A stretch of DNA of 64,000 nucleotides, taken from the NCBI RefSeq assembly GCF_000758725.1, contig NZ_CP009428.1, forward strand, positions 248,001 through 312,000, given 5' to 3'. Made by a program: the position numbers and the translations under genes. This document shows positions 18,269-22,189 of the stretch, piece after piece. The notes beneath the pieces were generated by a model. That model had not been told where the DNA came from, did not search any database, and saw nothing but the letters and a program-made list of their open reading frames with translations. Position 1 is the stretch's first letter. Each line of letters opens with the position of its first letter. Source of the stretch: Paenibacillus odorifer (GTDB lineage Bacteria > Bacillota > Bacilli > Paenibacillales > Paenibacillaceae).

Positions 18269-19066
18269 ATGACGACTAGACCTTACTTAAAAATGATCCA
18301 GCATTCTGTTACAGCCTCAGGGATTAGCTTTGAGGAAATTACACCAAATTTCGTATATAGAGCGACAGATGGAGTGAAATCATTTGTGATGGTAGACGCT
18401 GAGATCGGACTAAACAACAGTGCTTCTACGATTATTGCCATGAGTAAATCTCTAACTTATGATGTTTTGCATAAGGCGAATATCCCAGCCGTAGAACATA
18501 TTTATTTGCCGCATCCTGACTCCAAATTTAGCAATTTGAATCCTTATCCATTGGCTGAGCGTTATTTCCAAGCGTGCAATGGGGAGGTAGTTATGAAGCA
18601 GGATAACGGGGCGCAGGGAAAGCATGTGTACAAAATCAATGAGATAGCCGATCTGCACGAAAAGCTCGATTTATTATTTTCTTTACAGCTTAATGGGGCA
18701 ATAGGTCCTTATTATGAAGCGGAGATTGAGTATAGAATTGTAACCTTTAATCATCAGGCGCGTGTATTCCTTGGCAAAAAAAGAGTTCTTTCGTGGAAGC
18801 ATAATTTGATTAACGGGGCTGTTACGATTGAGGTGAAAGATCAGGCCAAACAAGAGGCGCTGGCGGAGCTTGCCTCCCGGACCTCTAAAGCGCTGGGCCT
18901 TGATTTCTGCTCAGTAGATATCTTAGAGACAAATCAAGGCTTGATGGTGATTGAGGTTAACCATAAGGTGATGTTAGATGAATATTGCAAGCAAAATCCA
19001 AGTGAAGTACCTGGCCTCTCAGACCTTTACAGGGAAGTTATTCTTCAGCGTATGAATCAGTTATAA
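18269..19066 (+). CDS. ATP-grasp ligase, RimK/CphA-like
   Basis: The product has 265 residues. ATP-grasp signs are the nucleotide-binding VVMKQDNGAQGK around 105-117, an E-x-E-x-R phrase around 151-155 (EIEYRIV), and the metal-binding Asp and E-V-N (GLDFCSVDIL ... MVIEVN) around 212-230. This fits carboxylate-amine ligases that join an amino acid or amine to a carboxylate through an acyl phosphate. It is short, with little pre-ATP domain. GAGG lies 7 bases before the ATG. It is convergent with, and overlaps by 6 bp, a FolC-like Mur ligase. ATP-grasp and Mur-ligase units are fused in cyanophycin synthetase, so the two may work together. Product unknown. Confidence 0.85.
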   Translation: MTTRPYLKMIQHSVTASGISFEEITPNFVYRATDGVKSFVMVDAEIGLNNSASTIIAMSKSLTYDVLHKANIPAVEHIYLPHPDSKFSNLNPYPLAERYFQACNGEVVMKQDNGAQGKHVYKINEIADLHEKLDLLFSLQLNGAIGPYYEAEIEYRIVTFNHQARVFLGKKRVLSWKHNLINGAVTIEVKDQAKQEALAELASRTSKALGLDFCSVDILETNQGLMVIEVNHKVMLDEYCKQNPSEVPGLSDLYREVILQRMNQL

Positions 19067-20410
19067 GCCGATATTCAGCAGCGATTGCCCGAATAATCTT
19101 TTGGCATTTCCGATTAGAGTTTGCGTACCCACGATTACAATAATCTCCGAAGGTGATTGTTCTTTAAGATACGTAAGAGCATCCTCTAAACAAGGGAATT
19201 CGGAACTTTTTTTGAGAAAACTTTTGGCGATTAGCAGGGCATCCGTAGGGAAAATTAGATGGCTTATATCGGGTTTGGTTACGATTAGTTGATCCGAGAC
19301 TGTGCTCATGACTTCAAGGACCCCTGTGTAATCTTTATCCTTAGGGACACCGATGATGGATGTGACGGTACGGCTGCGCTCAGGATTCACTAATTGAATA
19401 AGTTCAGCCAGATAGCTTGCAGAATCTCTATGAATAGCTCCGTCAATAATCGTCAGTGGATCATGATAGATAACTTCACAACGCCCCGGCCATTGTAATT
19501 GTTCAAAACAGTGATGTACGATCTCCTGATCAAGGGGTCCCCCTGTAATCTCTTCACAAAGTGACACTGCACTGGCAGCATTGACCGCTTGAAACTGTCC
19601 CAATAGCGGGAGGGTCAAGGATGGATAAATGGCTTGCTTCGTCCGGACATCAAAAGTAGTCCCGATAGAAGTGGTTGTGATAGATTCAGCTAAAAACTGT
19701 TCTTCATAATATTGCACAGGGTTGGAGGAGAGGTTGTCCTTCATGATCGCAAGAACTCCCGATTTCTGTTTGCTAACATAGACATTTGTTGTGTTGTTTT
19801 TGACAATCCCCAGCTTATGCAGTGTAATGCTGTTCAGATCAGGTCCCAAATGGGCTACATGCTCTTCCATAATTGGGGTAATGACAGCCCAGTCATTGCT
19901 CAGGACATTGGTGTCATCAAACCTTCCCCCTCTACCGCATTCAATCACATTGATATCTGTACCCTTCTCCTTAAAGTACAAAGCCGCAATAGCCAAAGCA
20001 ACCCCAACCGGACCTTGATATTCGTCAGCAGCAAGCTGCTCCTCAATCTGGTGGAAGCCCCCGCGAATTACATTACCTAATCGTACAAAGTCTTCGGTGG
20101 CTATTGCCTGCCCATTGACCCGGATTCTTTCGTTGAAATCCACCAGGTGAGGGGAGGTGAATAACCCCACTTTATATCCCAAGTGACTTAACAGAGAGGA
20201 GATAAATCTAGAGGTGGAGCCTTTACCTTTACTGCCTGTGACCAGTATGTATTTTTGATTACGATCCGGACTTCCAACTGCATCCAGTAATACTCTGGTT
20301 AACTCCGGTTTTCTAACTTCTTCATCCAAAGTTTGTGTAATGTTGTTAATGGCTCTTAGATAAGAGCTGTAGATCATATCTTCAACTTGGGATTGTGAAG
20401 TGAATTCCAC
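19061..20410 (-). CDS. FolC/Mur-ligase-family amide ligase
   Basis: The product has 449 residues from a GTG start with GGAGGG 6 bases upstream. The P-loop is GSKGKGST (59-66), followed by TSPHLVDFNERIRV (85-98). GRGGRFDDTNVL and HKLGI correspond to folylpolyglutamate synthase GLGGRLDATN and the carbamylated-lysine region. WPGRCEV and IDGAIHRDSA correspond to the FolC C-terminal WPGR and DGAHNPDA. FolC adds glutamate to folate by gamma links. The altered GSKGKGST and IDGAIHRD suggest a paralogue with another substrate. The neighbours (hydrolase, membrane protein, ATP-grasp) are not folate genes, so I infer a peptide- or polyamide-forming role. Confidence 0.85.
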   Translation of the reverse strand: MEFTSQSQVEDMIYSSYLRAINNITQTLDEEVRKPELTRVLLDAVGSPDRNQKYILVTGSKGKGSTSRFISSLLSHLGYKVGLFTSPHLVDFNERIRVNGQAIATEDFVRLGNVIRGGFHQIEEQLAADEYQGPVGVALAIAALYFKEKGTDINVIECGRGGRFDDTNVLSNDWAVITPIMEEHVAHLGPDLNSITLHKLGIVKNNTTNVYVSKQKSGVLAIMKDNLSSNPVQYYEEQFLAESITTTSIGTTFDVRTKQAIYPSLTLPLLGQFQAVNAASAVSLCEEITGGPLDQEIVHHCFEQLQWPGRCEVIYHDPLTIIDGAIHRDSASYLAELIQLVNPERSRTVTSIIGVPKDKDYTGVLEVMSTVSDQLIVTKPDISHLIFPTDALLIAKSFLKKSSEFPCLEDALTYLKEQSPSEIIVIVGTQTLIGNAKRLFGQSLLNIGL

Positions 20411-20424
20411 GGAAATCCCTCCAT

Positions 20425-21546
20425 TTAATTAATTTTGGCGCGTTCCTCAGATAGTGTTGTGTAGATGATAATCGGAAGTAACACAAGAGAAATGATGACG
20501 GTCAGAGCGATGCTCCAGTTCAAATCTTTATATAGCTGTACTATGGTGAACAACAAAGCGATAACAGGTAAGACCAGTTTGTTTAAGTGCTTTAGGAATA
20601 AGGAGTACATACTTCTTTTTACGGTAACTGATGTGCCGATGCTTGGAATTTCTAACTCGTTACGCGATAAGGCGGTGATTCCGATAAATAAGTGGCTGTC
20701 GATAAATTTAAGCTGCTCATTATCCGCATGAAGCTTGACCGACTGGGCAATATGCTCCGTATCGATGTCTAAGATGGGGATGGTGATTTGTTTTGAATTA
20801 TAGGAGATCACGATCTGATCTGTTTCTTCCATGCCTAGCAGTTTTCTAACATTCGGATGAATTCTGCATAAATTCTGGTGCTCATCAAAAGGGTAAGGAT
20901 GGCCCACTCTGAGGGTGAGCTCTCTTTTGCCAATAAAAAAGTTCCCTAATGCACTTAAGGGCCGTCGGATCAGTTGATTGATAAGTTTATGTATACCTGG
21001 CTTGGGTTGGGAACGCGTCCTAGCGCGAGTAATGATTAATGGGTCATGCCCCTCGGAATGGGTTTCAAGCAATAACATGATGTATCTGTTGAAGTAAAGG
21101 GTATTTGGTTTGGCTGTGCTATCTTCTCGTAAAGTTAGGTTTACCCGGAAGCCGTTTGTGGGATTGATTAGTTCCACTTGATTCGTATATTTACGGACGA
21201 GTGCTGGACAGGCTTTTACATAGGGTTTGGCAATCTCGTCCACTTTAGGAATTCCCCGAAGAACTGTGTCGTATTCTGGCTTCGTTATAGTTAATCCTGT
21301 AGTGAGGCAGTCCCCAAGCTTGTCCTTTGCCCGCTTGGATAATTGGATTGAACCTCTTGGCACCTCATCTGCCGATAAAATTAAACAGCTGACTTTCACA
21401 CCATTCTCTGCTGTAAGATCAACGAAGATATGCTGGACTAAACCTAATTCCTTTAACTCTTCAGAGTTCATTGTGATTTCTTCACGAGGTTGAAGGCTTT
21501 GTTTGTCTAGAATAGTAAAGGTTTGCTCGATAATAATGTCAGACAC
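20425..21546 (-). CDS. Membrane-anchored protein of unknown function in the ligase cluster
   Basis: The frame is open to 21639, but the upstream part overlaps the hydrolase gene by 101 bp. A GTG at 21546, overlapping the hydrolase stop by 8 bp, is the more likely start (373 residues). An ATG slightly downstream (MNSEEL) is also possible. The soluble part contains two related blocks: one around SIQLSKRAKDKLGD, the other around RIHPNVRKLLGMEETDQIVI, with a feel of double-psi beta-barrel domains. Two hydrophobic helices near the C-terminus anchor it to the membrane with a short tail. I do not recognise a named family. It is cotranscribed between the hydrolase and the Mur ligase. Confidence 0.7.
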   Translation of the reverse strand: MSDIIIEQTFTILDKQSLQPREEITMNSEELKELGLVQHIFVDLTAENGVKVSCLILSADEVPRGSIQLSKRAKDKLGDCLTTGLTITKPEYDTVLRGIPKVDEIAKPYVKACPALVRKYTNQVELINPTNGFRVNLTLREDSTAKPNTLYFNRYIMLLLETHSEGHDPLIITRARTRSQPKPGIHKLINQLIRRPLSALGNFFIGKRELTLRVGHPYPFDEHQNLCRIHPNVRKLLGMEETDQIVISYNSKQITIPILDIDTEHIAQSVKLHADNEQLKFIDSHLFIGITALSRNELEIPSIGTSVTVKRSMYSLFLKHLNKLVLPVIALLFTIVQLYKDLNWSIALTVIISLVLLPIIIYTTLSEERAKIN

Positions 21547-22189
21547 CGCCCAATAGTTTAATGATTTGTTCAAGGGAATGAATGGTTTTTTGGAATAAAT
21601 CAAACGCATTCGGGTTACGATAATTTCGATTAATTTCAATTTGAATACTTTGAACTAACAATTCTTTAGCGCAATATGAAGTAATCGTTCCAGGATGGGA
21701 TGCGGAAAATGTATGATTTTGTCGAACTTTGGTAATACCATTATTGTTAAAGATGCCTACGACGTCATTTAAATTATTTTCTCGTATAGAGGTTCCGTAC
21801 AGAGTCCCTAGATCAATATCAAACTCCCGAAGTTTGGAAGCCCCGTGCAGATCGATCACAAACTGAATGCGATGTTCTTTGACAAGCGCTCGTAGCGCAG
21901 CCTTATATTCTCCGCCTAAGATGTAATTTGGGTCTTCTTTGGAGAAGCTCTTTGAATAAATACAGTAGCAATTAGTGAGCTTTTGTAACAAGAGGGCAAG
22001 GGAGCCTGTATACATGTCAGCTGGTTTTACAGCATGTTCTCGAAAATGGTTAATGGCATGTGGAGCTGAGACAAGTACAGGAAGGGAGCCTTCTACAATC
22101 GAGTAGGAGGGATCTACCCCGATATCGCCAAAATAATTATTATTGGAGAATTGTAGCTCATACTGTTCGATCAGAGATAAAATATGCAA
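21539..22189 (-). CDS. N-formylglutamate-amidohydrolase-like hydrolase
   Basis: The product has 216 residues. The metal-site phrases of the FGase family are visible: SAPHAINHFR (about 41-50), IDLHGAS (about 112-118) and a late QIEINRNYR (about 183-191), which corresponds to the family's QLE-x-x-R-x-YR. The family cleaves N-acyl-glutamate-type amides using zinc. The start is TTG immediately after AGGTGA, poor spacing, but a stop codon just upstream rules out a longer form. It is the first gene of the three-gene minus-strand operon. It probably trims or degrades the product of the ligases downstream; this is inference. Confidence 0.75.
   Translation of the reverse strand: MHILSLIEQYELQFSNNNYFGDIGVDPSYSIVEGSLPVLVSAPHAINHFREHAVKPADMYTGSLALLLQKLTNCYCIYSKSFSKEDPNYILGGEYKAALRALVKEHRIQFVIDLHGASKLREFDIDLGTLYGTSIRENNLNDVVGIFNNNGITKVRQNHTFSASHPGTITSYCAKELLVQSIQIEINRNYRNPNAFDLFQKTIHSLEQIIKLLGGV

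Follow-up and report, generated by a model that had tools for sequence, protein, structure and literature searches.

What would a bacterium do with two unlike amide-bond-forming ligases, an amidohydrolase-fold protein and a membrane protein encoded side by side? The question is raised by four adjacent genes in a 64,000-nucleotide stretch of the Paenibacillus odorifer genome, which we call the window (G000:C1:248001-312000, in a genome of 6.8 Mb held on a single contig). An original prediction, made from the sequence alone, had read these genes as the pathway of a free small peptide or polyamide. The four open reading frames (ORFs) are where it had placed them, three of their products score above the cut-offs of known families, and the observation proves right and better supported than that prediction could itself show; its interpretation is supported in part. 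The most interesting element of the finding is a clade of FolC-type ligases, here termed FolCL, that stands apart from the housekeeping FolC. We tentatively favour a role in which the two ligases build, and the hydrolase trims, a glutamyl-type tail on a small carboxylate acceptor, with folate or a folate-like one-carbon cofactor as the leading candidate. The features of the locus are as follows:

18269..19066, plus strand: ATPg, a RimK-like ATP-grasp carboxylate-amine ligase of 265 amino acids (PF08443, PDB profile matches, alignment A5)
19061..20410, minus strand: FolCL, a FolC-type Mur ligase paralogue of 449 amino acids with a GTG start (TIGR01499, tree, residue counts)
20425..21546, minus strand: DPB, about 373 amino acids, predicted CDC48-N-like double-psi barrels and a hydrophobic C-terminal helical stretch (alignment A7, AlphaFold2 model)
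21539..22189, minus strand: FGL, 216 amino acids with a TTG start, predicted N-formylglutamate-amidohydrolase / poly-gamma-glutamate-hydrolase fold (PF05013, AlphaFold2 model)
19061..19066, no strand: the 6 bp that the convergent ATPg and FolCL genes share at their 3' ends (ORF coordinates)

The two ligase genes are thus separate and meet tail to tail, as had been noticed before. The 3' end of DPB lies 14 bases from FolCL, and FGL overlaps DPB by 8 bp if the GTG start is taken for the latter. The mechanical ORF of DPB begins at TTG 21639; the GTG at 21546 was adopted because the homologue in the genus genome G553 likewise has a GTG there.

A FolC-type ligase apart from housekeeping FolC

FolCL is by its scores a FolC-type protein. 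It reaches 239.5 bits against the folC model TIGR01499 (curated cut-off 162.65) and passes the Pfam cut-offs for Mur_ligase_M (42.6 bits, cut-off 24) and Mur_ligase_C (29.5 bits, cut-off 28.4), while it stays far below those of MurC, MurD, MurE and MurF. Its scores against the cyanophycin synthetase model TIGR02068 (31.1 bits, cut-off 850) and the poly-gamma-glutamate synthase PgsB (13.3 bits, cut-off 222.7) are low. The Mur-ligase middle domain occurs in six proteins of the window's genome. The ordinary folC of this genome, at about G000:C1:5452500-5453800, is flanked by murC and valS, and its product is about 30% identical to FolCL; an ordinary-type FolC likewise coexists with FolCL in the eight other family genomes tested that have FolCL. 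Together with the tree this separate gene rules out that FolCL is the housekeeping enzyme, and the Mur ligase is not the only FolC of its genome, in keeping with the original prediction. In the tree of 51 rows, which had been sorted beforehand into FolCL and FolC by best match and which was rooted for drawing only, a single branch separates the 29 FolCL from the 22 FolC rows with a support of 100/100 and in each of the 200 bootstrap trees; the branches of five FolC rows are long, and eight rows, the window's FolCL included, have an unusual composition.

K63, E157, H184, K199, R310 and D323 are identical in all 51 rows, and we take the first four to be the P-loop lysine, the Mg-binding glutamate and histidine and the carbamylated lysine of FolC. 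The SP(H)L..ERI segment, presumably the place where FolC holds its acceptor, is largely kept as well (S86 in 26 of 29 FolCL rows; P87, E94 and R95 in all 29). Position 326 in FolCL protein numbering, by contrast, is a histidine in 22 of 22 FolC rows and isoleucine (26, the window's Ile326 among them) or valine (3) in the 29 FolCL rows. We take this histidine of the FolC motif DGAHN to be His316 of the Lactobacillus casei FPGS, which would handle the incoming glutamate. Position 160 is an arginine in every FolCL row and in none of the FolC rows, and position 61 of the P-loop is a lysine in 29 of 29 FolCL rows, whereas FolC has asparagine in 19, lysine in two and cysteine in one. The GSKGKGST and IDGAIHRD segments that had drawn attention to the protein are present and show consistent differences from FolC. 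Since the FolC-type active-site residues are kept and the DGAHN histidine has given way to isoleucine or valine, the acceptor side is probably FolC-like and the incoming amino acid or its linkage different; in other words, we infer from the alignment that the acceptor-activating chemistry has been retained and the amino-acid side altered.

The clade extends beyond the family. The FolCL profile matches 398 of 398 class genomes, FolC itself being related. Of the 361 that lie outside the family, 44 have a match with an E value of 1e-70 or better, a minority of the class but a substantial one, although the boundary below E 1e-70 is not sharp. Twenty of these 44 loci were fetched and all 20 proteins fall inside the FolCL clade. 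At least seven of the 44 genomes (G675, G869, G893, G925, G942, G950, G982) hold a second, FolC-level match, and in G960 and G804 a folC-type gene lies within the fetched FolCL locus itself; G708, whose genome is 79% complete, has a single match among the matches listed. The curated models searched name this clade nothing other than FolC. The Lactobacillus reuteri protein called FolC2 belongs to another family, COG1478, according to the available part of its description (PMC5061717).

Two mobile sources of FolCL were considered and set aside. The phage family phrog_16655 (236.6 bits) leads to 25 phage records, the 15 best of which are 26-33% identical to FolCL and include two annotated as folC; as far as seen, the phage relatives appear to be ordinary FolC. 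'Mur ligase' matches on a Curtobacterium plasmid (33.5%) are annotated as three short genes and have no matching neighbours in the annotation.

The partner genes and their co-inheritance

ATPg has a RimK-like core (PF08443, 34.5 bits, cut-off 21) and stays below the cut-off of the RimK-family model TIGR00768 (56.4 against 143.4 bits, the match beginning at model position 76). Its score against TIGR02068 is 28.5 bits (cut-off 850). Among solved structures its profile finds RimK and alpha-L-glutamate ligases, at E values down to 5e-8. In the nine rows of alignment A5 the residues K110, E154, R156, W176, K177, H178, N179, D217, E229 and N231 are invariant, and the segments VMKQDNGAQG, EYR, SWKHN and DIL..VIEVN are conserved; these are presumably the ATP- and Mg-binding parts of an ATP-grasp ligase. 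A plasmid search returned two weak matches to ATPg.

The third member, FGL, passes the cut-off of PF05013 (33.3 bits, cut-off 28.9), as does its homologue in G553 (38.1), while that of G101, a genome of a second genus (g13), scores only 24.4. PF05908, the poly-gamma-glutamate hydrolase family, was not listed for the window's FGL at E up to 1, and the G553 homologue reaches 16.1 bits (cut-off 22). A search of solved structures with the FGL sequence profile returned no match at E up to 1. The AlphaFold2 model, with a predicted local distance difference test (pLDDT) of 93.4 and a predicted TM score of 0.92, resembles the N-formylglutamate amidohydrolases 2odf_C (Z 16.7; root-mean-square deviation (rmsd) 3.3, 187 residues aligned) and 2q7s_A (Z 16.5), with the poly-gamma-glutamate hydrolases 3a9l_A (15.4), 21dc (15.3) and 5onj_A (15.2) close behind and the next rows at 13.5 or less; the modelled fold thus appears too close to both to choose between them. 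H44, D86, D113, H115 and E185 are invariant or nearly so in 19 rows. Relatives of FGL (L051-L063) were seen in 13 of 298 other phylum genomes, 22-35% identical in the 12 of these 13 that were aligned, and none of the 13 loci fetched outside the family holds ATPg, FolCL or DPB (locus L058 ends at a contig end). The search of viral contigs with the FGL profile gave 100 pattern matches, none of which was confirmed, and that of plasmids no match.

For DPB no family was found over its cut-off, with weak matches to Molydop_binding (19.5 bits) and CDC48_N (16.3 bits, cut-off 35.1). The AlphaFold2 model is only fair (mean pLDDT 61), and its residues 208-313 match 7di0_A with a Z of 11.9 and an rmsd of 2.2 over 87 residues (VIA-align); the N domains of p97 and NSF match the model with a Z of about 11 over ranges from 91, and Foldseek finds 7dg9 (E 1.2e-5). 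The sequence profile matches the designed barrel 7dvf_A (E 4.5e-4) in agreement with the model-based match. The barrels may thus be of the double-psi type of the CDC48/p97 N domain, which fits the 'two beta-barrel-like blocks' that had been described, and the hydrophobic C-terminus (19-residue hydropathy of 2.45 near residue 345) is a likely membrane anchor, as had also been proposed. A hypothetical protein of a Halobacterium plasmid (L240 4725-5807) resembles DPB residues 106-338 (23.6% identity, E 4e-6), and the plasmid's annotation shows no matching neighbours.

DPB is present in 4 of 148 family genomes and 9 of 100 genus genomes, the window's own being counted in both. The other 397 phylum genomes hold none, apart from a weak match in G255 (E 2.6e-4, two internal stops) that was dropped as chance. 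In all nine genus genomes with DPB the four genes are adjacent and in the same order, so that they do stay together in relatives, as expected of a unit. One of the nine, G553, carries them at a different site, beside uridine-kinase-like and aldolase-like genes (by ORF reading), with 54-66% identity. The ratio of nonsynonymous to synonymous substitution rates (dN/dS) against two genus-mates is 0.09-0.13 over all four genes (ATPg 0.09-0.11, FolCL 0.10-0.13, DPB 0.09), which indicates that purifying selection acts on all of them; against the more distant G553, dS is saturated for three of the four genes and is 3.9 for FolCL.

In the second genus, g13, ATPg occurs in 9 of 37 genomes, and DPB accompanies it in one of these nine, being absent from the other eight. 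That genome, G101, has the row ATPg-FGL-DPB and no FolCL. All 15 genomes of the two genera that have both ATPg and FolCL carry them in convergent orientation, even when up to 24 kb apart, and 3 of the 18 ATPg genomes lack FolCL (G101, G133, G629). FolCL is on the ATPg contig in six g13 genomes; it adjoins ATPg in G125 and G644 and lies 11 to 24 kb away in G640, G637, G631 and G630. Since the two ligases and the hydrolase/membrane pair are also found separately, ATPg/FolCL and FGL/DPB look like two modules meeting in the window's genus rather than one obligate pathway.

Several further genes lie near the cassette or its relatives. In the window, sugar-type ATP-binding cassette transporter operons appear to stand on both sides of the four genes (by ORF reading), and a scan for promoters and terminators gave counts no higher than in shuffles. 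Four g13 genomes carry further genes between ATPg and FolCL, which look like insertions in the convergent pair and were not counted as part of the unit: G640 has PA14/phosphoesterase, SLH and GH92 genes with homologues in G637 and G631, and G630 has a GH92 homologue and a type I restriction system. In G631 (L147 4467-6542) the space between FolCL and the GH92 gene holds TerD/vWA-TerF-like and AIM24 genes, and a run of TerD genes occurs at G000:C1:370724-373218, about 100 kb from the cluster, and at about 120 kb in G553. A link to tellurite resistance (Ter) was rejected, TerD being absent in 7 of the 11 ATPg genomes searched. An aminoglycoside-adenylyltransferase-like domain precedes ATPg in six g13 genomes; the two share one open frame in G125, G644, G631 and G640, while in G630 and G637 the frames are shifted. 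PF10706 scores 31 bits in G125 (L066 6720-8204) and 29.5 in G644 (cut-off 21), and G631 and G640 have homologous sequence. An aminoglycoside-2''-adenylyltransferase-like domain N-terminal to an ATP-grasp domain is an unusual domain pairing.

A proposed tail on a one-carbon cofactor, and rival readings

The ATP-grasp enzymes MptN and CofF extend gamma-glutamyl cofactors with alpha-glutamate. We tentatively propose that the cassette works along similar lines. FolCL would bind ATP at the GSKGKGST loop, form an acyl phosphate on the terminal carboxylate of the acceptor as FolC does, and then join an amino acid to it. ATPg would add a further residue to the free carboxylate, in the manner of MptN, CofF and MyfB, and FGL would be the counter-enzyme, a metal-dependent amidohydrolase taking residues off the tail. 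DPB, for its part, could tether FGL, and perhaps also the molecule with its tail, to the cytoplasmic side of the membrane. Gene order, families, folds, conserved motifs, the distinct FolCL clade and joint inheritance are what the analysis shows; what we infer concerns the acceptor, the amino acid, the linkage, the metal use and direction of FGL and the role of DPB. In the available parts of the respective papers, FPGS is described as lengthening the tail by glutamates joined to its growing end (PMC10861534), the ATP-grasp enzymes MyfA and MyfB as lengthening the polyglutamate tail of methylofuran, a one-carbon coenzyme (PMC8141765), and alpha linkages as present in the folate tails of E. coli (PMC1971073).

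The genes around the relatives of the cassette point in the same direction. It had been said that no folate genes adjoin; this holds within the window and does not hold for the relatives. A purU-type gene, identified by PF00551 and ACT, follows the ATPg-FGL-DPB row in G101 and stands directly after ATPg in G133 and G629; G101 and G133 share a major facilitator superfamily (MFS) gene on the other side. In G804 (L212 5948-9551) a divergent folC-like gene overlaps FolCL and a convergent purU lies about 34 bp from FolCL; the first of these genes has a very long tree branch (3.05). In G960 two RimK-like genes and FolCL form a co-directional row between valS and a divergent folC. After the orthologues, the best class matches to the ATPg profile are RimK-like genes (26 weak matches). 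Among the 17 best of the 26 loci (L083-L099; the nine weakest were left out) a FolC gene lies in the 3.4-3.5 kb stretch examined in 14, of which 13 are in family f3 and one in f175; the stretches of L090, L096 and L099 hold none. Eight of the loci at larger size all have a RimK pair, six have folC and five have the pair between valS and folC; at the locus of L090 (L238) folC is about 3 kb away. Pairs of RimK-like genes between valS and folC were seen at L232, L233, L235, L238, L239 and L214, in families f3, f175 and f191.

A number of observations weigh against this reading. The RimK/FolC neighbourhood is real, but with 13 of its 14 instances in family f3 it may reflect old synteny. The purU genes of G101, G133 and G629 belong to one related locus, and purU therefore amounts to about two independent events. 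Among the 20 outside FolCL loci a RimK-like gene occurs only in G960 and purU only in G804; since 19 of them have no RimK-like gene, FolCL needs no ATPg. In 13 of the 20 none of the partner genes tested was found. G133 and G629, conversely, have ATPg without FolCL, DPB or a nearby FGL. In family f182 penicillin-binding proteins adjoin FolCL co-directionally in five of seven loci; they flank it in L217-L219 and stand on a single side of it in L220 and L224. These five of the 20 outside loci suggest a cell-wall role there. The folate-tail model leaves the adenylyltransferase-like domain fused to or preceding ATPg in six genomes unexplained. The wall context, the partnerless FolCL loci and this domain argue against a simple folate story.

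Foremost among the alternatives is the polyamide that was originally envisaged, a serious rival, if an unlikely one. FolCL and ATPg would act in turn on a free small peptide or polyamide, as in cyanophycin synthetase, with DPB holding the product near the membrane and FGL cutting it. The same two fold types are fused in that enzyme, both proteins match TIGR02068 weakly, the fold of FGL includes poly-gamma-glutamate hydrolases, and the cassette, carried by 9 of 100 genus genomes, is accessory. The FolC score of FolCL, however, far exceeds its cyanophycin synthetase and PgsB scores, none of the four genes encodes an exporter, and it is FolC-type and one-carbon genes that lie beside relatives; nothing shows a free peptide or polyamide product.

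The tail hypothesis can also be put in a more specific form, which we regard as rather doubtful as a whole: FolCL would found a family of FolC-derived ligases that give a folate-like cofactor a tail other than gamma-glutamate or one with a different linkage; its alpha-linking partners would be ATPg and the RimK pairs of the valS/folC loci in related families, and FGL/DPB would form a membrane-held trimming module.

It is improbable, the f182 loci notwithstanding, that the cassette modifies the cell wall, with FolCL and ATPg acting on a muropeptide or wall precursor, FGL as a wall-peptide amidase and DPB as the membrane anchor of the complex. The one or two penicillin-binding proteins co-directional with FolCL in these loci speak for it, as do the relation of the FGL fold to amidases and carboxypeptidases and the apparent membrane anchoring of DPB. 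Yet FolCL is FolC-type and scores far below the MurC/D/E/F cut-offs, two f182 penicillin-binding protein queries found no match in the other 15 of the 20 outside loci, and there is no known wall gene among the four. At one f182 locus (L217 4700-10366) SpoVR-like and MFS genes lie nearby.

We give still less credence to a tagging of proteins, in which ATPg would add residues to a protein C-terminus, FolCL branch or extend them, FGL remove them and DPB recruit the tagged protein to the membrane. The N domains of p97 and NSF, whose fold DPB appears to share, bind partners, and the solved structures closest to ATPg are those of RimK and alpha-L-glutamate ligases. Nevertheless ATPg stays well under the RimK-family cut-off, DPB is missing from all but one of the g13 genomes with ATPg, and we know of no Mur-type ligase that acts on proteins.

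Equally hard to credit is the view that the ligase and hydrolase/membrane modules are unrelated and adjacent by chance, with no common pathway. Six g13 genomes have ATPg/FolCL but no DPB, and no FGL close to the pair, G101 has FGL/DPB with ATPg and without FolCL, and in 13 phylum genomes FGL has none of the other three close by; against this stand the shared order of all four genes in nine of nine genus genomes with DPB, including G553 with its other site and its 54-66% identity, and the company that FGL and DPB keep with ATPg in another genus (G101).

Least likely of all is self-protection or drug modification, in which an antifolate or another drug with a carboxylate would receive amino acids from the ligases or be hydrolysed by FGL. 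The adenylyltransferase-like domain and the patchy accessory distribution would suit this, whereas no drug-biosynthesis or transporter gene lies in the four-gene unit and none of the four proteins matches a PADLOC defence model at E up to 0.01, a search that did not extend to resistance-gene libraries.

Comparison with known systems

If the more specific form of the tail hypothesis is true, it describes a folate-tail remodelling pathway in bacteria, and alpha-linked folate tails may be the work of enzymes such as ATPg and the RimK pairs; the RimK-like genes between valS and folC are natural candidates in a search for such linkages. Should FolCL make a different tail on folate or another cofactor, its genes are mislabelled as folate biosynthesis and the chemistry of one-carbon cofactors in bacteria is more varied than has been supposed. 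This idea can be put to a direct test in the cassette, where FolCL is accompanied by a partner ligase, a candidate for the trimming enzyme and a membrane protein. In the literature searched, no paper joins an ATP-grasp enzyme, a Mur ligase and an N-formylglutamate amidohydrolase, or FolC, RimK and PurU, or Paenibacillus, folylpolyglutamate and ATP-grasp, and no title describes the four-gene cassette.

The closest known relative of FolCL is FolC (TIGR01499), with which it shares homology over the full length, the positions of the P-loop lysine, the presumed Mg-binding glutamate and histidine and the catalytic lysine, and the SP(H)L..ERI segment. It differs in having DGA(I/V) for DGAH, E-x-G-R-G for E-x-G-L/V/M-G and GSKGKG for a P-loop with asparagine at that place in 19 of 22 rows, and it forms a clade of its own. 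ATPg resembles RimK, MptN, CofF and LysX in its RimK-like core, which is over the Pfam cut-off, and in sub-threshold matches to the MptN, CofF and LysX models, and departs from them in staying below those NCBIfam cut-offs, in an N-terminal part that is shorter or diverged, and in standing beside FolCL. FGL is related to PF05013 and to the poly-gamma-glutamate hydrolases of phage and Bacillus (PghP, YndL, phage PM1) by its modelled fold and its conserved His/Asp/His/Glu residues; it is 12-20% identical to the solved structures and, unlike them, is part of a ligase cassette.

In cyanophycin synthetase CphA an ATP-grasp and a Mur-ligase domain cooperate within one chain, whereas here the two are separate convergent genes, the Mur-type partner is FolC-like and the scores against the synthetase model are weak (28.5 and 31.1 bits). 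The MyfA and MyfB enzymes of methylofuran biosynthesis, in the available part of their description, are ATP-grasp ligases that are compared with RimK and MptN and build a polyglutamate tail (PMC8141765); that system uses two ATP-grasp enzymes and the word FolC is absent from the paper's main text, while the cassette described here pairs an ATP-grasp ligase with a FolC-type one.

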